A model generated the notes under the pieces. It saw only the letters and a program-made list of their open reading frames with translations. It made no database searches and had not been told where the DNA came from. A stretch of 64,000 nt of DNA, taken from the NCBI RefSeq assembly GCF_000025525.1, contig NC_013887.1, forward strand, positions 878,729-942,728, read 5' to 3'. Below, piece by piece: positions 12,072 through 23,561 of this stretch; within the stretch, counting starts at the first letter, position 1; every line of letters starts with the position of its first letter. Made by a program: the position numbers and the translations under genes. The stretch is from Methanocaldococcus sp. FS406-22. GTDB lineage: Archaea; AGJL01; Methanococci; Methanococcales; Methanocaldococcaceae.

Positions 12072-12734
12072 ATGATATGTCTACCAGTAGTTGAAGATAG
12101 TGTAGAAAAAGCAATAAAAACAGCTGAAAAGTATTTAGAAATAGCAGATATTGTTGAATTTAGGATAGATATGCTTAAAGAAGTTAGTGAAGAAGATATA
12201 AAGAAATTTGCTAAATATCCTTGCATAATAACCGTTAGACCAGATTGGGAAGGTGGTTATTGGAAAGGAAATAATGAGGAAAGATTAAACTTAATAAAAA
12301 AGGCAATTGAATATAATGCTAAGTATGTTGATATTGAGTTAAGAGAAGAGAAAAATAAAGAAATTGTAAAATTTAGAGATGAAATTGGTTCAAAAACAAA
12401 AATTATAATCTCTTATCATGATTTTGAAAAAACTCCGTCAAAGGAAAAATTGGTAGATGTTGTTGAAAAAGCTCTTAGCATTGGAGATATAGCAAAATTT
12501 GCAACAATGGCAAATAGTAAAGAAGATGTCCTCAATATTTTAGAAGTGATAAATAAATATCCTGGAAAGATTATAGGCATTGGAATGGGGGAGAAAGGGA
12601 AACTAACAAGAATCTTGGGGGTTTATTTTGGCTCAATATTAACCTTTGCTTCTTACAAAGGGAAAAGCTCTGCCCCTGGGCAAGTTGATGTTGACACACT
12701 AAAAGAGATTTGGAAGTTAATGAAATTAGAGTAA
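12072..12734 (+). CDS. aroD: 3-dehydroquinate dehydratase, type I
   Basis: A 220-residue type I dehydroquinase that makes 3-dehydroshikimate in the aromatic amino acid pathway. The visible signatures are [35 protein letters not shown] (the catalytic His of the family), [10 protein letters not shown] with the Schiff-base Lys in IAKFA, and the C-terminal [12 protein letters not shown]. Length and motifs are normal. The gene ends nine bases inside the convergent DUF447 gene. Confidence 0.93.
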
Positions 12735-13304
12735 ATTTAAATTTCTTAGCATGGTTTCAGCCAATTGTTTATGCTCTCTACCACCAACTTTTTTAATTAT
12801 TGAGAAATATTTCTTCATTTCTTTTTCCATCTCTTTTTTGTCTTCTTCATCAATTTTTATGTTTTTGTTAGCTAATCTTGAATAAATAACTGCCATCTCA
12901 ACCAATAATCCGTCTGCTCTATTGTATGGCTTTGGAACTTTATCTAAATATATTCTTTTTATCTCTTCTCCCTCTACAATCATCAATCTGTTTTTTCCAA
13001 ATTTATCTTCCTTATCAATAAACTCCCTTTTAACAACTTTATAAAATATAGTATAATAGGAGTTTTTTAAATAGGGGATATCATTGTAGTAGAGATATTC
13101 ATCATTATCATCTAAAACTGCCTTTGCTATTTCAATTGGTGGAACTACATTAACCGAAAAATAATCTTCAGTTGAAAGATTTTCATAGGTATGAGAGCCA
13201 GAAAAAAGATGCATGATAACTTTTTTATCTTTAAAATAAACACCAATTGGGGCTTTATTGTCTTTGTTATCTTTCCTTGTTGCTACAACTACTTCATTTA
13301 TCAT
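12726..13304 (-). CDS. DUF447 family protein (FMN-binding split-barrel fold)
   Basis: A 192-residue protein starting [20 protein letters not shown]. The sequence [26 protein letters not shown] followed by FSVNVVPP is the flavin-reductase-like split barrel of DUF447, widespread in methanogens and of unknown reaction. The C-terminal part ([19 protein letters not shown]) is helical. ATG at 13304 is preceded by GGGAT. Its 3' end overlaps the 3' end of aroD by nine bases. It forms the left border of the defence-like island. Confidence 0.75.
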
Positions 13305-13378
13305 AATTATCCCAATTTAATGTTTAGTAATATTGCTTATAAAACACTAACCCATCTTAGAAATACTTAAAAGTAAAA

Positions 13379-13386
13379 TTTATATA
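13379..13386 (+). promoter_or_regulatory. TATA-box promoter of the BREX-like operon
   Basis: AAAATTTATATATTCC, with the TATA core TTTATATA, lies about 63 bases before the ATG at 13449. Upstream A residues could form the BRE. This is the only clear TATA match in front of the five genes, which are otherwise joined by overlaps or very short gaps, so one promoter probably serves all. Confidence 0.55.
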
Positions 13387-13448
13387 TTCCCCTTTTTTTG
13401 TATTATAAAAATGCTATATTTTAGGTCACTGATGTGGGGGTAAAGCTT

Positions 13449-13988
13449 ATGGATAACACATATAAATATTTAGATAGTGAATATTTAAAAAAACTTCTTG
13501 AGGTAGTTTCTAAGAATCATTATCAGATGCTATTAATTTCAGAACCTGAGAATCTTGATCTTAATCCTAAATCTAAAAAATTAAAGGAAGAAATAATAGA
13601 CTGGATAACAAAAAATGGTGGAAAATATTATGACATCTCACAAATTGTTGTAGAATTGCTTGAAGAAGATATATCTTCAGTAGAAATTGGGCTGAAACTT
13701 AATGATATAATTTATGACATTATATCAAAAAATAGTGGTATTCCTGAACCAATAATATTTGATAATGTTGGATTACTGTTTTCAAAAGATTTTGGGGGAT
13801 TAGAGCCAATAAGAACATTTAAATACCACTCAAGAACTCATCCAATAGTTTTATTTGTCCCATTAAAATTAAATAAACTTAGACAAACTGCAACATTCGG
13901 AAATCCTGGAGATGAGGATTATAGAAGCGACATAGATATCTCAGAAATTATATGTGTAGAGTTAAAGGAGATGATGGCCGATGGTTAA
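13449..13988 (+). CDS. BREX-like small protein (BrxF- or BrxB-like), first gene of defence operon
   Basis: A 179-residue protein starting MDNTYKYLDSEYLKKLLEVV; GTGGGGG upstream fits this ATG, though GTG 13434 is possible. The N-terminal half reads like an AAA-type sensor protein (NHYQMLLISEPENLDL) without a Walker A loop. The C-terminal half (HPIVLFVPLKLNKLRQTATF, then GNPGDEDYRSDIDISEIICV) recalls the end of BrxB/BrxF proteins of BREX systems. Its position directly before the large ATPase, with an 8-base overlap, matches brxF-brxC order in type 3 BREX. Similarity is weak by eye; placement in the operon is the stronger argument. Confidence 0.5.
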   Translation: MDNTYKYLDSEYLKKLLEVVSKNHYQMLLISEPENLDLNPKSKKLKEEIIDWITKNGGKYYDISQIVVELLEEDISSVEIGLKLNDIIYDIISKNSGIPEPIIFDNVGLLFSKDFGGLEPIRTFKYHSRTHPIVLFVPLKLNKLRQTATFGNPGDEDYRSDIDISEIICVELKEMMADG

Positions 13989-16900
13989 GGTAAAAGAACT
14001 TTTTAATTTTCAGGAGATTCGTCCAGTCATACAAGTAGTAAAAGATGATCCAAAAGAGCTTGTTTCAACCTTTGTAGTTTCAGATAAAATGAAGAAAGAT
14101 ATTGAGCTTATAGTTCAGAACTTAAATGATATCCAACATCGTTCAATCTTTATAATTGGTGATTATGGTACTGGAAAGTCACATTTCTTGGGTTTTATTG
14201 TAAATATAGCAGGAGATAAATCTCTAATTGATTATATACAAGATGAAGATCTTAAAAAATACTTAAAAGAAAACTTAGAAAAAGATTTCATTATTGTTGT
14301 ATATGAGTTAAATCCAATTAGACAGCCATTTGGACTCATTTTTTATCTTATAATGCAAATGTACCTTGAGAAAAATTACGGAATAAAAATTAACGTCCCA
14401 AAAACAGAGGAAGAATTTAATAGCATTTTAGACCATAAGCAATACATAATCGACAATATAATTAAACCTGTAAAAGAAAAATTTCCTGATAGAGGGATTA
14501 TAGTCGCATTTGATGAGTTATCCGACTTTCTTAGACAGAAACATAGGGAGGACGTTAATCAAGATATGCAGTTTATAAGGATACTTGGAGAATTATCTGA
14601 AAAAGAAGATATAATATTCATTTTTTCAATGCAAGAAAATATCTTTAGAAGCCCTCTTTATGTTGACCAAGCAGATGCCGTAAGTAGAGTTTACCAAAGA
14701 TACCATATAATCGAAATTACTAAAGAGGACGTTGAGAAAGTCCTTGCACAAAGGATAGTTCCAAAAACTCCAGCCCAAATTGCAAAGCTTAGAGAACTTT
14801 TATCACAGTATAAAAAATATTATGAGGATTTTGAAGGAAAAGAAGATGAATTTATCGAACTCTATCCAATTCATCCGTCCGTTTTACATGCATTTAGGCA
14901 ATTACCTTACTTCCAAAAAAGAGGAATTTTAAAATTTGCGATGGACAAAATAAAGGAAATACTTGATAAAGAATTCCCAGCTTTTGTAACAATGGATTCA
15001 ATATTTGATGAAATTTATAATAACCCTACAATATCAAATACTGAAGAAGTAAGGGAAGTTTTAGATGTTGTTGAAAGATTGCTATACAAGATACAATCCA
15101 TTCCTGCTCTTAGAAAAGATAGGGATATTGCAGAGCGTATAATTAAATCTCTTGCAGTATATAAGTTGATGAAACCTGAGGAAAAACCAACTCCCTACCA
15201 AATTGCTTATGATTTAATGGTTCTTCCAAGATTAGAATCAATAGAGATAAATGACTATATACTCGGTATTATAAAAAGAATTAGAAGAGAAACTGCTGGA
15301 CAATTTTTAGGTTATGATGAAAAGGAAAAGAAATTCTATATAGATTTGGAAAGAAAGATTGACTACGATGAAATAATAAACAGAAAGATTTCTATACAGA
15401 GTAATGATGACCGCGAATCTTACCTTTTTGAATTTTTGAGGGAGAGTTTAGAACTCTCCAGAGATGACGTAAAATTAGAAAGGCCAAGTATAAAGATTTT
15501 TAGAACTACAGCATTCTGGGAAAGTAGAAAGGGATTCCGTAATGGATTTATAATATTTGAAGGTAAAAATCTTAAAAATTCCGCTAAAGAATATAAAAAT
15601 TTCTTAGGAAATGATTTTGCAGTAGTGGTTGTTTCTCCATATAAGTCAGAATCGATTTTTGAACCATCTGATGCTACCATATTAATTAAGCTAAAAATTA
15701 AGGAATCTGAAGAAAATCTAAAGAGATATTCAGCAATTAAAGCCCTTATTGGAGATAGACAGTATGTTAATGTTATGAAAGATAAATTAGCTACAGTAAA
15801 AAGAAAATTGGTAGATGAATTAACAAATGATATGCTAAATTCTGTAATTAACTATAATGGAAAAAATATTGTTGTTGGAGACTTAGTTGGTGAAGAAGTT
15901 GGAGATATCTACACTATTATTGAAAAGATAAAATCAAAATTGTTGGAAGATTACTTTAGTAGAGAGTATAGTGAGTATCCAAAATTCTCAATAAAAATAA
16001 CTCCAGAAAATATTGAAGATGTTGTGAAAAGAGTATTGGAGGATATTTTAGCATCTCCAGACCCTGAAAATTATAGGAAAGATACCATTAAAATACTCTC
16101 AGACTTGGGATTATATAGCCAAGGCAAATTGAAAATAACTGATAACCCATACATATCAAAAATACAAGATTTATTGAGTGGAAAAACAAAGGATTTCAAG
16201 TCAATCCTTGAAAAAATGTCTCAAAAACCTTATGGAATACAAAAAGAGATTTCCTACATTTTTGTTAGTGTTCTACTCATAAATGATGAGATTGAATTAA
16301 AGAAATCAACAAAAGATCGTATAGGGCCATTAGAGATACGTGAGCTTTTAAAGAAAAAAGGTTTATCAGCATTTGATATTGTTAAATATATAGAACCTGT
16401 TTCAGAATTCCCAGTTAATGACCTTCAAAAGATATTTGATGCTTTAGAATTAGATTCAACAAAAATTAGAATAAAAAATCAGAGATTAGATGCATTAAAG
16501 GACTACAAATTCAGAGTAAGTGAATTAGAAGATGTAATTAAAAAACTTAATGACTTACAATCCAAGATTGATAAAATAAAAAATTTAGGATTTACAGTTT
16601 CTGAGGATAAAATACAATCATTATTGAACATTGCAAACAATAAAGAGTTATTGAATAAATTAAAAGAAGTTAATTCACTACATGATTTCAATAAGATACA
16701 CAAAATATCTCCTGAATTAATTAAAGAATGGAGAGAAAGCATAGAAATCTTAGGAAGATTAACGAACGACCTTGAGAAGATAATCCCACTACTTGAGTAT
16801 GCAAAATCTGCAAAAGACATTATAGATGCATGTGAGGATATATTCTCAGAAATTTATGTCAAAAAGTTGAATGAGCTATACGAAGAGGTAGTTAAAATTA

Positions 16901-17613
16901 TTGAAAGTGATAAATTACTTGATATTCAACATAGGTTGCCTATTCCAGGAAAACTTGAAGAATTTAAGAGACTATATATCGAGGCTTATGCTGAAGCACA
17001 TAAAAGGTACTTTGAAAAAGAAGAGTGGAAAGAACTTAACAAACTTCTGAATTCTGAAACTTTAAAAGAACTTAAGATACTCTCACAAGTGAGGTGCATA
17101 AATGGTTCTATAGTAGAACAAATTGAAAATGAAATTTATGAACTTCTTAAGAAAAGATGTAATATCACTAATCCAGAACAACACTTAACATATATGCCAG
17201 TATGTTATTGCGGATTCCCAAGAGATTCTCCTATAGGTATTGATTTATCACAAAAAGTTCAAGAATTAAGTAAAAAAATTGATGAATTAAGAGATGAATG
17301 GGAGAGAGTAATTATTGAGGAGATTAAAAAAGTTCAAGATAAAATAGAGTTCTTAAAACCAAATGAAAAAGATGCTATTGAAGATATTATTGCTCAAAAC
17401 TCACTTGGAGAGGTTGATAGAGAGTTAGTAAGTATTATAAATAAACTATTTGAGGACTTCCAAGTTGTTGAAATTAGACTTGAAGAATTTTATGAATGGT
17501 TAGGGGAGGGAGGATACCTATTAACTCCAGAGGAACTAAAAGAAAAATTTGAAGAATTTATTAAAATAAAAGTTCCTAAGGGAGAAAATGTTAGGGTAAA
17601 AATTGTAAAATGA
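13981..17613 (+). CDS. brxC: BrxC/PglY-like P-loop ATPase, 1210 aa
   Basis: A very large ATPase. Walker A is GDYGTGKSHFLG near residue 60; Walker B is IIVAFDELSDFLRQK near residue 175; a sensor-like IIFIFSMQENIF follows. The region PIHPSVLHAFRQLPYFQKRG is typical of BrxC/PglY (DUF6079-type) proteins. The middle and C-terminal thirds are helical and coiled-coil rich (residues about 830-1000). Near residue 1075 a CYCGFP segment may help form a metal site. Known for the family: BrxC is a core, indispensable ATPase of BREX phage-exclusion systems. The ATG overlaps the previous gene by eight bases, and the methyltransferase gene follows 10 bases after its stop. Confidence 0.75.
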   Translation: MVKVKELFNFQEIRPVIQVVKDDPKELVSTFVVSDKMKKDIELIVQNLNDIQHRSIFIIGDYGTGKSHFLGFIVNIAGDKSLIDYIQDEDLKKYLKENLEKDFIIVVYELNPIRQPFGLIFYLIMQMYLEKNYGIKINVPKTEEEFNSILDHKQYIIDNIIKPVKEKFPDRGIIVAFDELSDFLRQKHREDVNQDMQFIRILGELSEKEDIIFIFSMQENIFRSPLYVDQADAVSRVYQRYHIIEITKEDVEKVLAQRIVPKTPAQIAKLRELLSQYKKYYEDFEGKEDEFIELYPIHPSVLHAFRQLPYFQKRGILKFAMDKIKEILDKEFPAFVTMDSIFDEIYNNPTISNTEEVREVLDVVERLLYKIQSIPALRKDRDIAERIIKSLAVYKLMKPEEKPTPYQIAYDLMVLPRLESIEINDYILGIIKRIRRETAGQFLGYDEKEKKFYIDLERKIDYDEIINRKISIQSNDDRESYLFEFLRESLELSRDDVKLERPSIKIFRTTAFWESRKGFRNGFIIFEGKNLKNSAKEYKNFLGNDFAVVVVSPYKSESIFEPSDATILIKLKIKESEENLKRYSAIKALIGDRQYVNVMKDKLATVKRKLVDELTNDMLNSVINYNGKNIVVGDLVGEEVGDIYTIIEKIKSKLLEDYFSREYSEYPKFSIKITPENIEDVVKRVLEDILASPDPENYRKDTIKILSDLGLYSQGKLKITDNPYISKIQDLLSGKTKDFKSILEKMSQKPYGIQKEISYIFVSVLLINDEIELKKSTKDRIGPLEIRELLKKKGLSAFDIVKYIEPVSEFPVNDLQKIFDALELDSTKIRIKNQRLDALKDYKFRVSELEDVIKKLNDLQSKIDKIKNLGFTVSEDKIQSLLNIANNKELLNKLKEVNSLHDFNKIHKISPELIKEWRESIEILGRLTNDLEKIIPLLEYAKSAKDIIDACEDIFSEIYVKKLNELYEEVVKIIESDKLLDIQHRLPIPGKLEEFKRLYIEAYAEAHKRYFEKEEWKELNKLLNSETLKELKILSQVRCINGSIVEQIENEIYELLKKRCNITNPEQHLTYMPVCYCGFPRDSPIGIDLSQKVQELSKKIDELRDEWERVIIEEIKKVQDKIEFLKPNEKDAIEDIIAQNSLGEVDRELVSIINKLFEDFQVVEIRLEEFYEWLGEGGYLLTPEELKEKFEEFIKIKVPKGENVRVKIVK

Positions 17614-17623
17614 GGTGTTTATA

Positions 17624-20095
17624 ATGGAAGACAATATTATTAAAGACATTGAAAAAGTTAAAAACATTGAGGGGTTTCCATTAGGAGATATTGAAGATAT
17701 CGTTGAGATATCAAACCCCCCAGAATTTACTCTTTACCCTAACCCTTACATTGAAGACTTTATAAAAGAGTTTGGAAAGTCTTATGATGCAGAAAATGAT
17801 GATTACCAAAAAACTCCTTATGTTTCAGATGTAAGTGAGGGGAAGAACGACCCAATTTATAATGCACATACTTATCATACAAAAGTTCCATATAAAGCAA
17901 TAATGAAGTTTATAAAGCATTATACTGAGCCTGGAGACATAGTTTTTGATGGATTTTGTGGTAGTGGGATGACTGGTGTTGCGGCATTGATGACTGGAAG
18001 ACATGCAATCTTAAATGACCTCTCTCCAGTTGCAACATTTATAGCATATAATTTCACGCATCCTGTAAATCCTAAGGAATTTAAAAAAATGGCAGAGCAA
18101 ATTTTAAAAGAAGTTGAAGAAGAATGTGGATGGATGTATAAGACAAAACATGATGATGGTAGGGAGGGAGTAATAAATTATGTTGTTTGGAGTGATGTTT
18201 TTAGATGTCCAAATTGTGGTGCAGAGTTGGTATTTTGGGATATTGCAGTAGATTTTGAAAAAAATAAAGTGAAAAAAGAATTTATCTGTCCAAGTTGTGA
18301 AATTAAATTGGATAAGAGGAAACTTGAAAGAGTTTTTGTGAAAAAGTATGATTCTGCTCTTGGAAAAGAAATAGAACAAGCAAAACAAGTGCCAGTTTTA
18401 ATAAATTATAAGGTTAGAGAAGGTAAAAAATGGAAAACTTATGAAAAAACCCCAGATGATGAAGATTTGAAGTTAATTGAAGAAATTGAAAAAAGAAATA
18501 TTCCATACTGGTATCCAACATATAGAATGCCAGAAGGATATAATACTGAACAACCTAAAAAATCGCACGGAGTAACTCACGTTCATCATTTTTACACAAA
18601 AAGAAATTTATGGTGTTTAGCATCATTTTATGATAAAATCAGAAAGATTGAGGATAAAAATTTAAAATATGCGTTGATATTTTGGTTTACTTCAGCATTA
18701 CTTAGGACTACCAAAATGTATAGGTGGAATCCTAAAAGACCAACAGGTTTTTTATCTGGAACATTATACATTCCTTCCATAGGTTATGAATTTAATATAA
18801 TATATATGATGAATTATAGAATAGACCGACTGTGTAAGTATTTGAATAGTTATCCAAAAATAAATAATAAAATATACATAACAACACAATCCTCAACAGA
18901 TTTAAGGAATATTCCAGACAATTCCATAGATTACATTTTTGTTGATCCACCATTCGGAGATAACCTAATGTACTCTGAATTAAACTTTATCTGGGAATCA
19001 TGGCTGAGAGTTTTTACAAATAATAAACCAGAGGCAATAATAAATGAAACACAAAATAAAGATGTTTATGAGTATAAGGAACTTATGTATCAATGTTTTA
19101 AAGAAATGTATAGAATATTAAAGCCAAATAGATGGATAACTATTGAATTCCATAATTCAAAAGCAAAAGTATGGAACGCAATCCAAGAAGCTTTATCTAA
19201 AGCAGGATTTATTATTGCAATGGTATCTACATTGGATAAAAAACAAAAAACATTCAAACAAATAACTGGAACTACATCAGTTGCTACAGATTTGATTATA
19301 AATGCTTACAAACCAAAAAAAGAATTTGAAGAAAGATTCTTAAAATCTAAAGGTAAAGGATTTGAAAAAGAATTTGTAGAAGAGCATTTACAACATTTAC
19401 CATTAGAACCAAATATAGAAAGAACTGATAAAGTCCTTTATTCAAGAATGTTAGCATATTATGTGCAACATGGTTATGAAATTACCATGGATTCAGAAGA
19501 ATTTTATGAAATGTTAAAAGAAAACTTCATAAATATAGATGGTTATTGGTATACTATTGAGCAGGCAGATAAATTAAGAAAAGAGCAGGAAAATAAATTG
19601 GGAGAATTATTAGCCAAAAAGAAACAATTAACATTATTCATTACAAATGAAGAAGATGCTCTTCTTTGGTTATGGAATTTCTTAAAAGAGCCAAAAACTT
19701 ACAGTGAAATTTATACAAACTATACAAAGTTCTTAGGAAACACTGAGGAAGACATTCCAGAATTGGAAGAACTTCTAAGACAAAACTTTATAGAGGAAAA
19801 TGGAAAGTGGAGGAGACCTACCGAAGAAGAGAAAAAATCTCTCGAAAAGAAAAAGAGAGACAAACTACTTAGAGAATTTAACAAATTACTTGAAGATATT
19901 AAAGCAGGAAAGATTAAAGCTAAAATTAAAAATGTCAAAAAGAGTGTTATTGTCGAAGGATTTAAAGAATTATACAAGAAAAAGTGTTATGAAGACATTA
20001 TTTTGGTAGCTGAGAAATTACCAACAAAACTTGTTGAAGAAGATGAAGATATTTCAATGTTTGTAGATATAGCATACTCAAAATTAGAGGACTGA
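17624..20095 (+). CDS. DNA methyltransferase of BREX-like system (PglX/PglXI type) with internal zinc ribbon
   Basis: An 823-residue methyltransferase. The AdoMet-binding motif is VFDGFCGSGMTGVAALMTGR near residue 108 and the catalytic motif IV is FVDPPFGDNLMYSEL near residue 440, so the AdoMet motif comes first. Between them are two CxxC pairs, FRCPNCGAEL and FICPSCEIKL, forming a zinc ribbon that probably belongs to the target-recognition part. The layout recalls COG1743/DUF1156-type methylases, used as PglXI in type 3 BREX. The start is ATG 17624 (MEDNIIKDIEKV) behind GAGGTG. In BREX the methylase marks host DNA. DPPF rather than NPPY leaves open whether adenine N6 or cytosine N4 is methylated. 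Confidence 0.8.
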   Translation: MEDNIIKDIEKVKNIEGFPLGDIEDIVEISNPPEFTLYPNPYIEDFIKEFGKSYDAENDDYQKTPYVSDVSEGKNDPIYNAHTYHTKVPYKAIMKFIKHYTEPGDIVFDGFCGSGMTGVAALMTGRHAILNDLSPVATFIAYNFTHPVNPKEFKKMAEQILKEVEEECGWMYKTKHDDGREGVINYVVWSDVFRCPNCGAELVFWDIAVDFEKNKVKKEFICPSCEIKLDKRKLERVFVKKYDSALGKEIEQAKQVPVLINYKVREGKKWKTYEKTPDDEDLKLIEEIEKRNIPYWYPTYRMPEGYNTEQPKKSHGVTHVHHFYTKRNLWCLASFYDKIRKIEDKNLKYALIFWFTSALLRTTKMYRWNPKRPTGFLSGTLYIPSIGYEFNIIYMMNYRIDRLCKYLNSYPKINNKIYITTQSSTDLRNIPDNSIDYIFVDPPFGDNLMYSELNFIWESWLRVFTNNKPEAIINETQNKDVYEYKELMYQCFKEMYRILKPNRWITIEFHNSKAKVWNAIQEALSKAGFIIAMVSTLDKKQKTFKQITGTTSVATDLIINAYKPKKEFEERFLKSKGKGFEKEFVEEHLQHLPLEPNIERTDKVLYSRMLAYYVQHGYEITMDSEEFYEMLKENFINIDGYWYTIEQADKLRKEQENKLGELLAKKKQLTLFITNEEDALLWLWNFLKEPKTYSEIYTNYTKFLGNTEEDIPELEELLRQNFIEENGKWRRPTEEEKKSLEKKKRDKLLREFNKLLEDIKAGKIKAKIKNVKKSVIVEGFKELYKKKCYEDIILVAEKLPTKLVEEDEDISMFVDIAYSKLED

Positions 20096-20099
20096 AAAT

Positions 20100-21455
20100 A
20101 TGAGGCTATATTTATGGGTTAAGGATAGGTTAGACCCTGGAAGACCAAATTTAATCCTTGACCCTGATTTTTCTGTATCTTATGATATAATTGATAAACT
20201 AAAAAATGAAGGATACATTATTGAAGATCTTAGAGACAAACCAATACAACAACAAAAAAAGAGGATTATTGAAATTTATTCCAAACATTCTAAATTTAGT
20301 GGAATAATATTAATCTCAAGTGTCAAAGAATCAAAAATCTATTCAATAATCAAAAATTCTGGAAGAATAAACACACTATCTAATTTCCCTACATCCACAA
20401 AAATAAACTTAAATGAAATTCATTCCTATATTGATAAAATTTCTTCAGACATAAATTCAGTATTTAGATGGATTAAGTTAGCAAAAACTATAGGAAATTT
20501 AAAATACCAAGCTAAAGATATTGAAAGTCGTAAATCTATAAACCTCTTTTTAGAAAGAGTTGTAGATCCTAAATTCTTTGATTTTGTTTTTAATTCATAT
20601 AACAAACTTTTTACTTACGGTTCAAAATTTTTAACTATAAATAAAGCTATAGATTACATAATCTCATTAGTGAAAAATAATAGTACAGAAAAAGTGCTTT
20701 TGGTTGTAATTGATTGTATGGCATGGGATGATTATTTTTCCATAAAAGACTTCTTTGAAAAAACATGTGATAGAGCCATTTTTGCCATGATTCCTACACT
20801 AACGTTTTATTCCCGTATATCACTTTGTTCTGGATTAATTCCAAGAAATTTTGACAATTTAACAATTAATGATGAAAAAAAGTTATTTTATCAGAAAATC
20901 AGTAATGAACTTGGAAAAGAATTAGGAATTTACATAAAGAACAATATAGAAGAGTTAAAAAATGCAATTTCTCAAGATAATCACAAAATGATATGTTTTA
21001 TATATAGCAAATTTGATGAAGTTATACATTCAGAAGATGTAAACAAAAACCATGCCTATCATAAACTCCAAGAACTCTTTAAAAGAGACCTATATGACAT
21101 TATAAAAACTGCTAAAGATTTGGGATGGAGAGTATTCATAACTTCTGACCATGGGAATATTGAAACGTTTGAAAAAGGATTCCATCTTCCTAAATATTTA
21201 GATTATGAAGGTAAACGATGTGGACGTGTGGATGATTTAAATCTAATAGATGAAAGCATTAAAAATCAACTTATAATAGTGGAAGGAAAAAAATTCAGAC
21301 ATTTAAATAACAATGATATTTTTATTTTCCCTAAAAAAAGAATACCCCTCTCAAAAGAGTCATATTCTATTACACATGGTGGTATTACAATAGAAGAGCT
21401 GATTATTCCATTTGTAGAGGTTTTAGAGGTGAAGAAAATTGTTAATAGGTCTTGA
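20100..21455 (+). CDS. pglZ: PglZ-domain protein (alkaline-phosphatase fold), 451 aa
   Basis: The PglZ metal-site motifs are all visible: LLVVIDCMAWDDYFS near residue 203, MIPTLTFYSRISLCSG near 233, FITSDHGNIETF near 348, and SITHGGITIEELIIPFVEV at the C-terminus (about 425). PglZ is the signature protein of BREX and Pgl systems and is essential for exclusion. At 451 residues it is shorter than the roughly 650-900 usual for BREX PglZ; the N-terminal portion before the metal site is about 200 residues. It starts five bases after the methyltransferase stop and overlaps the last gene by 17 bases. Confidence 0.85.
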   Translation: MRLYLWVKDRLDPGRPNLILDPDFSVSYDIIDKLKNEGYIIEDLRDKPIQQQKKRIIEIYSKHSKFSGIILISSVKESKIYSIIKNSGRINTLSNFPTSTKINLNEIHSYIDKISSDINSVFRWIKLAKTIGNLKYQAKDIESRKSINLFLERVVDPKFFDFVFNSYNKLFTYGSKFLTINKAIDYIISLVKNNSTEKVLLVVIDCMAWDDYFSIKDFFEKTCDRAIFAMIPTLTFYSRISLCSGLIPRNFDNLTINDEKKLFYQKISNELGKELGIYIKNNIEELKNAISQDNHKMICFIYSKFDEVIHSEDVNKNHAYHKLQELFKRDLYDIIKTAKDLGWRVFITSDHGNIETFEKGFHLPKYLDYEGKRCGRVDDLNLIDESIKNQLIIVEGKKFRHLNNNDIFIFPKKRIPLSKESYSITHGGITIEELIIPFVEVLEVKKIVNRS

Positions 21456-22170
21456 AATGCCAATAAAAGCTCGATGGGTGTATGACTTATTGAACATATT
21501 AGAACCTGGAGATAAAAATGATGAAATAAATAGAAAAATAGATCAAATACTTTTTGAAATTGCTGGAAAAGAAAGTAGAAGAAAAATTAAAACAATATTA
21601 CTTAGATATTTTGTTGAGACTAAAAAAATTGATGCAAGGACAATTGAAGTTCAAAGTTCTCCATTACTATACTATTCAAAAAATTATGATTTCCAAATCA
21701 TGAAACCTCTATATTTAGAAGTTTTATTAATAAGAAGTAACTCAATTAGAATCATATTAAACTCAATACTAAAAAAATATGAAAATATAAACTTCAAACG
21801 AAAGGATGTTATGGAGATTGTTAGCACAAAATTTGGACAAAGAAGATCAACAGAAAAATTTGTGGATAATTTTCTTAAAGTCATGGTTGAATTTGATATA
21901 TTTTCAAAAATTGATACTGGCGTATATGCAATAAAACCAAAAATTAAACTAAATGAAAAACAAAAGGTATTATTTATACTGTTATATTCATACTATACAA
22001 AAACATCTACAATTGAATTACAAACATTTGATTTAATACAAGAATTTAATGTATTTGATTTAGATTTTGATGAAATCTTACAAAAATATAATGGAAAATT
22101 ATGGCAGTTAAGTTATAGAGCAGGCGGATATTTAGTATATATCACGCAAAAATTTGATATTATTATATAA
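21439..22170 (+). CDS. BrxA-like (DUF1819-type) protein, last gene of defence operon
   Basis: A 243-residue protein. GAGGTGA at 21426-21432 places the start at TTG 21439, inside pglZ; ATG 21457 is the alternative. The central LYLEVLLIRSNSIRIILNSI, followed by RSTEKFVDNFLKVMVEFDIF, is a winged-helix-like pattern. The end, FDEILQKYNGKLWQLSYRAG, recalls the tail of BrxA, a DNA-binding BREX protein. In type 3 BREX brxA follows pglZ, as here. Detection by eye is weak; gene order supports it. Confidence 0.5.
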   Translation: MLIGLEMPIKARWVYDLLNILEPGDKNDEINRKIDQILFEIAGKESRRKIKTILLRYFVETKKIDARTIEVQSSPLLYYSKNYDFQIMKPLYLEVLLIRSNSIRIILNSILKKYENINFKRKDVMEIVSTKFGQRRSTEKFVDNFLKVMVEFDIFSKIDTGVYAIKPKIKLNEKQKVLFILLYSYYTKTSTIELQTFDLIQEFNVFDLDFDEILQKYNGKLWQLSYRAGGYLVYITQKFDIII

Positions 22171-22226
22171 AGCAAAATTTAAGGTATTGGCTATAAAGTC
22201 GATTTTTATAAAGTTTACAAAGATAT

Positions 22227-22385
22227 TTAATCATATTCTTCCTCCCTCAGTTCTTTTAAGTATGTTGAAGACTCTTTTCCTAAAGGGATTAAATCTTTAT
22301 ATTTTCCAACCATTTTCTTAGAACATCTTTTTTTTATCTTAATTGTATCCATTAAATGGGTTAGTTCTTTAATATTTACTATCAT
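22227..22385 (-). CDS. Orphan VapB-like antitoxin, 52 aa
   Basis: Minus strand: MIVNIKELTHLMDTIKIKKR ... STYLKELREEEYD, stop at 22227. The N-terminal strand-helix and the C-terminal tail STYLKELREEEYD resemble archaeal VapB antitoxins, whose tails often read like S-T-x-x-L-R-E-L-R-E-E. The GGTGAAAG just before the ATG is a good ribosome site, inside the 3' end of the upstream methyltransferase gene. No PIN-domain gene lies beside it. It is four bases downstream of the 22390 gene on the same strand, so it is likely co-transcribed, and it borders the BREX-like operon. Confidence 0.6.
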   Translation of the reverse strand: MIVNIKELTHLMDTIKIKKRCSKKMVGKYKDLIPLGKESSTYLKELREEEYD

Positions 22386-22389
22386 TCTT

Positions 22390-23169
22390 TCACCACGTTT
22401 TTACTTTTATACTCTCTAAATCTCCTCCTCTTCTGTATGATAAGTTTATTTTAACATTTCCTTTATCTACCTTTTTATTTAATGGAATTACCAATGGAGG
22501 GTTTAACATTGGTGTTTGTCCTGCTACATGTTTGTCATCTAATATTGTGTATGTCCTTAGCTTTATTCCTAAGTTTTCACAACTTTTTTCAAGCTCTAAC
22601 TCTATATTATAGCTTACTTCAATAGGATTTATCTTATAGAAATTAACTTCCTCATAAATAACCTCTTCAGAAACTTCCTCTGATTTAATATCTTCATCAT
22701 AATAGATATGGTTCATTTTTGCCTCTACAAGTTGTATAGTTGATATTGCTTTAGCTGGAATAATTTTAGCATCTTCTTTTAAAAAATCTCTCTCTATTAT
22801 TGAATTCATAACCTTAACTTGCGGTTCAGTAATTAAAGCAGTGTCTAAAAGCTCGGCTATAATTACATCAGCTTTCTCTTTAAAGTTGTAAGTTGAGGCA
22901 TCTCCCTCAATAATTTCAATATTACTGAATCCATTAACTTTTATGTTTTCCTTTGCGTAATCATAGGTGAATGGGTCTAACTCAATAGCATAAACTTTTT
23001 TTGCTTTCTTTGCAGCAATCATTGCTAAAATTCCACTGCCCGTTCCTAAATCAAAGACAACATCATCTTTATCTACAACTCTCTCTATAGCGTTTTTAAA
23101 GATTGCTAATCTTTCATAATCTGTTAGTAAAGAGTAATGCCATTGTGGGACTTTTAATTTTACTTTCAT
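22390..23169 (-). CDS. Class I SAM-dependent methyltransferase (PRMT-like), 259 aa
   Basis: The AdoMet motif is DDVVFDLGTGSGILAMIAAK, followed by the acidic strand VYAIELDPFTYDYAKENI and IEIIEGDAS. The double-E region VIIAELLDTALITE is like protein arginine methyltransferases and their archaeal relatives. The C-terminal beta-rich half fits a PRMT-like barrel. The start is ATG 23169 (MKVKLKVPQWHYS), behind GGAGATGA; ATG 23175 is also in frame. Substrate unknown. It corresponds to MJ1452 by memory and marks the right border of the island. Confidence 0.75.
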   Translation of the reverse strand: MKVKLKVPQWHYSLLTDYERLAIFKNAIERVVDKDDVVFDLGTGSGILAMIAAKKAKKVYAIELDPFTYDYAKENIKVNGFSNIEIIEGDASTYNFKEKADVIIAELLDTALITEPQVKVMNSIIERDFLKEDAKIIPAKAISTIQLVEAKMNHIYYDEDIKSEEVSEEVIYEEVNFYKINPIEVSYNIELELEKSCENLGIKLRTYTILDDKHVAGQTPMLNPPLVIPLNKKVDKGNVKINLSYRRGGDLESIKVKTW

Positions 23170-23561
23170 GTTCATCTCCTTCAGGTTTTATGTATTCAAT
23201 TTAAACTTTAATGTTAATTTTACCTCTACGAAAGTTATATATTAATATAAATAAAAAATTTAATAGATTGAAGAGTGCGTAACCTATATACACTAATTTT
23301 CCATATTTTTCAAAAATAAAAAAATATATATAGAAGGTATGCTAACAATATTATTACGTGGGGGCATTAGAATGTCTATTTTTAATTTGAATGTTCAATA
23401 TTAGAGATATTTTATATAATGATGGGGGAGGGGTTTTACGTCCTGACATTCATATAACATTTTACAGATATGATTTAAAGAACAAAGAGTAATAATTTTT
23501 AGTATAAGCATCAATATTTCATTTAAAATGTTATTTTGTGGAAATCCTATATATTTGGCAT
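23170..23561. other. 390-bp intergenic region without a convincing gene
   Basis: A TATA-like AAAAATATATATAG at about 23322-23335 is followed by GTGGGGG and an ATG at 23371 that opens only nine codons. A GC-rich spot GATGGGGGAGGGG lies at 23419-23433. Several short frames exist on both strands but none has a ribosome site and length together. The plus-strand promoter with a nine-codon frame could be the remains of a lost gene. Confidence 0.4.

Follow-up and report, generated by a model that had tools for sequence, protein, structure and literature searches.

We analysed a window of 64,000 nucleotides from Methanocaldococcus sp. FS406-22 (NC_013887.1, positions 878,729 to 942,728 of the forward strand). 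Five intact open reading frames lie on its plus strand from 13434 to 22170, forming a tight array in the order brxF, brxC, pglXI, pglZ and brxA. The features of the locus are as follows.

12726 to 13304, minus strand: left flanking gene, DUF447 (Pfam DUF447_N and DUF447_C)
13316 to 22401, no strand: inserted segment with the BREX operon, from BLASTN of the window against the empty-site loci L110, L111, L113, L114 and L115
13379 to 13387, plus strand: TATA-like sequence TTTATATAT, 5' of brxF, read directly from the sequence
13434 to 13988, plus strand: brxF, GTG start with an alternative ATG at 13449; inactive P-loop (iSTAND-like) partner
13981 to 17613, plus strand: brxC, 1210 aa; AAA+ ATPase of the DUF6079 family
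17615 to 20095, plus strand: pglXI, GTG start with an alternative ATG at 17624; predicted adenine DNA methyltransferase of type 3 BREX
20100 to 21455, plus strand: pglZ, short form of 451 aa; catalytic core intact, no middle segment
21457 to 22170, plus strand: brxA, ATG start; small DNA-binding protein (PADLOC BrxA)
22390 to 23175, minus strand: right flanking gene, PrmA/TRM5-like methyltransferase (Pfam PrmA 60 bits, TRM5-TYW2 52 bits)

The brxF gene overlaps brxC by 8 bases and the remaining genes follow at gaps of 1, 4 and 1 bases. This agrees with the preliminary description, which had five genes running head to tail with overlaps or gaps of at most 10 bases, except that the methylase gene and pglZ are separated by four bases and not by the five given there. 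The sequence TTTATATAT upstream of brxF is a possible archaeal promoter. For pglXI the ATG at 17624 has a better ribosome-binding sequence than the GTG at 17615, and for brxA a TTG start at 21439 is less likely. Inspection of the open reading frames found no brxL within the operon. Inside the insertion, a 52-codon open reading frame without a Pfam match lies between brxA and the right flanking gene (22227 to 22385, minus strand). A literature search found no description of BREX in Methanocaldococcus.

Profile searches of the five proteins, proposed in the preliminary description as its check, gave matches far beyond chance for all five BREX families. The PADLOC and Pfam assignments bear out the gene order of type 3 BREX minus the helicase gene brxHII, and the protein motifs quoted earlier are all present in the translations. 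BrxC was matched by PADLOC at 5.7e-169 and by Pfam DUF6079 at 626 bits, and contains both Walker motifs (Walker A GDYGTGKS at residue 60, Walker B IVAFDE at residue 174). PglXI was matched at 3.5e-304. Its FCGSG (motif I, residue 114), two CxxC pairs (198 and 225) and DPPF (444) are spaced as in its relatives, and by these motifs and their spacing it carries the insert target-recognition domain and four-cysteine finger that type 3 BREX requires. BrxA was matched at 9.3e-23 across residues 2-222. The first gene, earlier called BrxF- or BrxB-like, is BrxF (PADLOC 5.9e-11) and not BrxB. Residues N106 and R129 of BrxF are conserved in the family alignment. Its AlphaFold2 model has a pLDDT of 88, and a fold search with this model returned weak AAA+ matches only (best E 1.9e-3). 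In other loci (L017, L018, L019, L021, L023, L024 and L026; Bacteroidota, Spirochaetales, Calditrichia and others) we observed brxF fused to the N-terminus of brxC, giving a protein of about 1400 aa.

PglZ was matched by PADLOC at 6.5e-34 and by NCBIfam BREX_PglZ_3 at 2.3e-48, the latter at 165 bits, under the curated cut-off of 250. BrxF likewise reached 40.8 bits with NCBIfam BREX_3_BrxF, for which the cut-off is 50, and on account of these scores we regard both proteins as divergent. When aligned to a profile made from related loci, PglZ matched strongly at positions 275-639 and weakly at positions 13-85 (PglZ residues 10-80), and the middle segment was absent. In type 1 PglZ, helix-turn-helix-like units separate the N-terminal domain from the helical linker (PMC12839542), and the missing segment appears to correspond to these units. 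It is also missing from the PglZ of many helicase-bearing type 3 systems.

The metal ligands of PglZ (D205, T235, D306, H310, D350, H351 and H426) were invariant in an alignment of 17 sequences. The AlphaFold2 model of PglZ matched the response regulator PorX (7pvk, 8tef) at about 1e-17 and the PglZ of the Acinetobacter BrxC-BrxB/PglZ complex (9zn5) at 2.6e-10; the first 100 residues were poorly modelled (pLDDT below 50) and no fold is claimed there. PorX has the same PglZ-type metal-dependent phosphodiesterase core, but unlike PglZ it contains a receiver domain, and its role is in type 9 secretion and not in defence. PglZ acts as a nuclease and has a part in defence, and in type 1 BREX its nuclease activity is dispensable for methylation (PMC12205998). 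The PglZ of one other locus (L068:11086-12573) has no SDHG metal-ligand segment, which is present in its sister L039, and is possibly inactive.

Type definitions were taken from the survey of Rakesh and Krishnan (2026, PMC12839542). Of the features that define type 3 there, the operon has a DUF6079 BrxC, a PglXI, a PglZ with an intact metal core, BrxF encoded beside brxC, and BrxA; BrxHII is absent from both operon and genome. The window shares with type 3 BREX as described there the order brxF, brxC, pglXI, pglZ and brxA, the DUF6079 BrxC, a PglXI with insert and four-cysteine finger and a PglZ without the C-terminal domain, and differs from it in lacking brxHII and the middle segment of PglZ. 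Since the survey reports BrxHII in 702 taxa, or 77% of type 3 systems, we file the operon as a type 3 variant despite the missing helicase. Systems of this kind without BrxHII are thus already counted in the survey, which, in the parts consulted, does not treat them as a separate form. A BREX-related (BR) system centred on DUF499 was rejected: PF04465 had no match in the whole genome and the ATPase is of the DUF6079 family.

No helicase gene was found between pglXI and pglZ or elsewhere in the locus. We then searched the genome (1.77 Mb in 2 contigs, 99.87% complete) for BrxHII. The best match to the BrxHII profile reached 45 bits, on a protein of 366 residues, as compared to 638-675 bits for true BrxHII references from Methanobrevibacter, Halanaerobium, Methanoflexus and Spirochaetales, and no member of the BrxHII family was found. 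A general SNF2 profile gave one match in the whole genome, below the cut-off. The genome does encode generic helicases, including matches of 366, 793 and 814 aa, none of them near the operon. The earlier suggestion of a helicase encoded elsewhere is not supported for brxHII, as genome-wide searches yield generic helicase motifs only.

The preliminary description also had the operon standing alone between conserved neighbours, and this was confirmed. The site was compared with 13 further genomes from the genus. In eight of them (G001, G004, G005, G006, G008, G009, G011 and G012) the flanking genes are directly adjacent and in the same direction, with matched segments 1-14 bases apart. They are apart or on different contigs in G003, G007 and G013, and neither was found in G010. 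DNA alignment placed the bounds of the insertion at 13316 and 22401, and both flanks match the empty sites up to these points. The operon runs on the strand opposite to the flanking genes, the last codons of the right flanking gene are altered by the insertion, and no target-site duplication was seen at its edges.

The same insertion is present in G002, shrunk by a single deletion of about 7.3 kb that runs from brxC into brxA and spans a 10-base near-repeat (9 of 10 bases identical). The scar that results (L005; G002:C1, around 957013-957666) joins the end of brxF and the start of brxC to the tail of brxA. Beyond G002, PglZ and BrxC were found in no further genome of the genus. Between the window and G002, dN/dS was 0.049 for the surviving part of brxC (dS 0.38) and 0.20 for the brxF part (dS 0.26), and brxC was thus under strong purifying selection. 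The flanking genes have dS values of 0.73 and 0.87, and nucleotide identity is mostly 90-95% inside the insertion and 79-89% outside. The operon seems younger in the two lineages than their split, which is likely explained by lateral exchange. The operon is dispensable, since most of it has disappeared from the sole relative that carries it.

A genome scan with the BrxC alignment gave 80 loci, to which later sampling added more. The helicase-less layout is not unique to the window. The Enterococcus faecium plasmid pP47-180 (NZ_CP091103.1) has these five genes in identical order with a short PglZ (487 aa) and no helicase, and NCBI annotates its brxF and BREX-3 pglZ; its BrxC is only 25% identical to that of the window and branches within the main BrxC clade to which the window does not belong. 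Five Bacteroidota loci without helicase (L024, L025, L026, L028 and L081) contain BrxC, PglXI, a short PglZ and BrxA and belong to the window's main BrxC clade, but unlike in the window brxF is fused to brxC. The five-gene set without helicase also occurs in L039 and L068 (brxF called in neither) and in L140 (Clostridia). L082 and L091 lack the helicase too, but in them other genes intervene. In L024, L028, L068 and L082 the sequence of the locus stops within 2 kb of brxA. Genome-wide searches of the helicase-less carriers other than L140 gave no BrxHII match with a score comparable to that of true BrxHII. These hosts also argue against the earlier idea of a variant adapted to hyperthermophilic archaea: the form is found in Bacteroidota, in Clostridia and on a plasmid of Enterococcus, and at least one thermophile, Thermovorax (L030), retains the helicase.

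In the BrxC tree of 59 loci, helicase presence changes seven times, and all seven changes are forced by well-supported branches. Since both main clades contain helicases, repeated loss is the simplest reading. A single helicase-less ancestor of the window and the Bacteroidota loci was rejected (AU p 4.5e-6), a result to be read with caution, as the window row has a long branch. In L081 and L026, a pair of Bacteroidota loci without helicase, dN/dS was 0.038 for BrxF-BrxC, 0.035 for BrxA, 0.18 for PglZ and 0.28 for PglXI, and all genes of the pair are under purifying selection. The two loci are 92% identical in BrxC, 90% in BrxA, 86% in PglZ and just 48% in PglXI. Divergence is greatest in the PglXI insert, the part expected to recognise the target site, and suggests an exchange of methylation specificity.

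The middle segment of PglZ is missing from 10 of 12 helicase-less loci and from 14 of 47 helicase-bearing ones (Fisher p 0.002). The link between helicase loss and short PglZ was not significant in an independent-pairs test (1.7 of 7 pairs in the same direction, 0.3 in the opposite), and for this reason we treat it as a hypothesis. Added sampling found many helicase-bearing loci with a short PglZ. In three losses (L140, L039/L068 and the Bacteroidota) the helicase-bearing sisters already lack the segment, a pattern that would fit loss of the PglZ segment before loss of the helicase. We tentatively propose, as a possibility well short of an even chance, that type 3 BREX can operate on its five proteins alone, with BrxC remodelling the DNA; the PglZ segment would be lost first, the helicase would then become dispensable, and the form would recur.

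We consider it likely that the window holds a horizontally acquired type 3 BREX variant which is probably functional and would carry out methylation, nicking and defence without a dedicated helicase. By analogy with type 1 systems, BrxC, BrxF, PglXI and PglZ would assemble into a DNA-scanning complex driven by the ATPase of BrxC. PglXI would mark host DNA with N6-methyladenine. The complex would recognise unmarked viral DNA, which the metal-dependent core of PglZ would nick or degrade so that it could not replicate, and BrxA would assist DNA binding. In every type 1 system tested, BrxB, BrxC, PglX and PglZ are enough for methylation. Methylation can do without BrxL, and the need for BrxL in restriction varies (PMC13326643). 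This literature on BrxL, together with that on PglZ, and the selection seen in the L081/L026 pair are two indirect lines which suggest that the system may work without a helicase.

Three other explanations were weighed. The operon could be an orphan methylation module that kept methylation, lost restriction along with the helicase and is on its way to decay. The decay of the same operon in G002 by deletion would fit this, as would the smaller set of parts that type 1 methylation needs compared to restriction (PMC13326643). However, every metal ligand of PglZ is kept even though type 1 methylation does not need the nuclease (PMC12205998), pglZ is under selection in the helicase-less Bacteroidota (dN/dS 0.18) and all five reading frames are intact, and we judge this reading unlikely. 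It is less likely still that an unrelated host helicase stands in for BrxHII. BrxHII is published as the supplier of DNA unwinding (PMC12839542), and the generic helicases of 366, 793 and 814 aa would be available for the task, but none is near the operon or BrxHII-like (best 45 bits against 638-675). Since the E. faecium plasmid version likewise has no BrxHII-like helicase, a fixed partner would have to exist in very different hosts. Finally, a faulty assembly or a recent deletion could have removed the helicase gene from the junction of pglXI and pglZ, exactly where brxHII lies in most type 3 loci. This is very improbable given that pglXI ends and pglZ begins cleanly at a distance of four bases, that a 99.87% complete genome of two contigs has BrxHII nowhere in it, and that unrelated species show junctions of this kind as well.

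We therefore return to a type 3 variant that probably works with five proteins. Helicase-free type 3 systems whose other subunits are kept under selection bear on the role of the BREX helicase, or of BrxL, and point to the minimal working set. Such natural systems offer a direct test of whether restriction needs the helicase, and the thermophile version may suit structural work.

Further arrangements were observed among the sampled loci. In four Bacillota loci (L035, L045, L061 and L070) brxHII lies after brxA instead of between pglXI and pglZ. The type 3 BREX of Methanoflexus has a KAP-family NTPase gene between brxC and pglXI (L131:7483-9465) and, before brxHII, a gene for a 939-aa protein without a Pfam match (L131:13460-16279). 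Immediately 3' of the helicase-less BREX operon of L081 is a gene encoding a Piwi-domain, Argonaute-like protein (L081:18355-20409).
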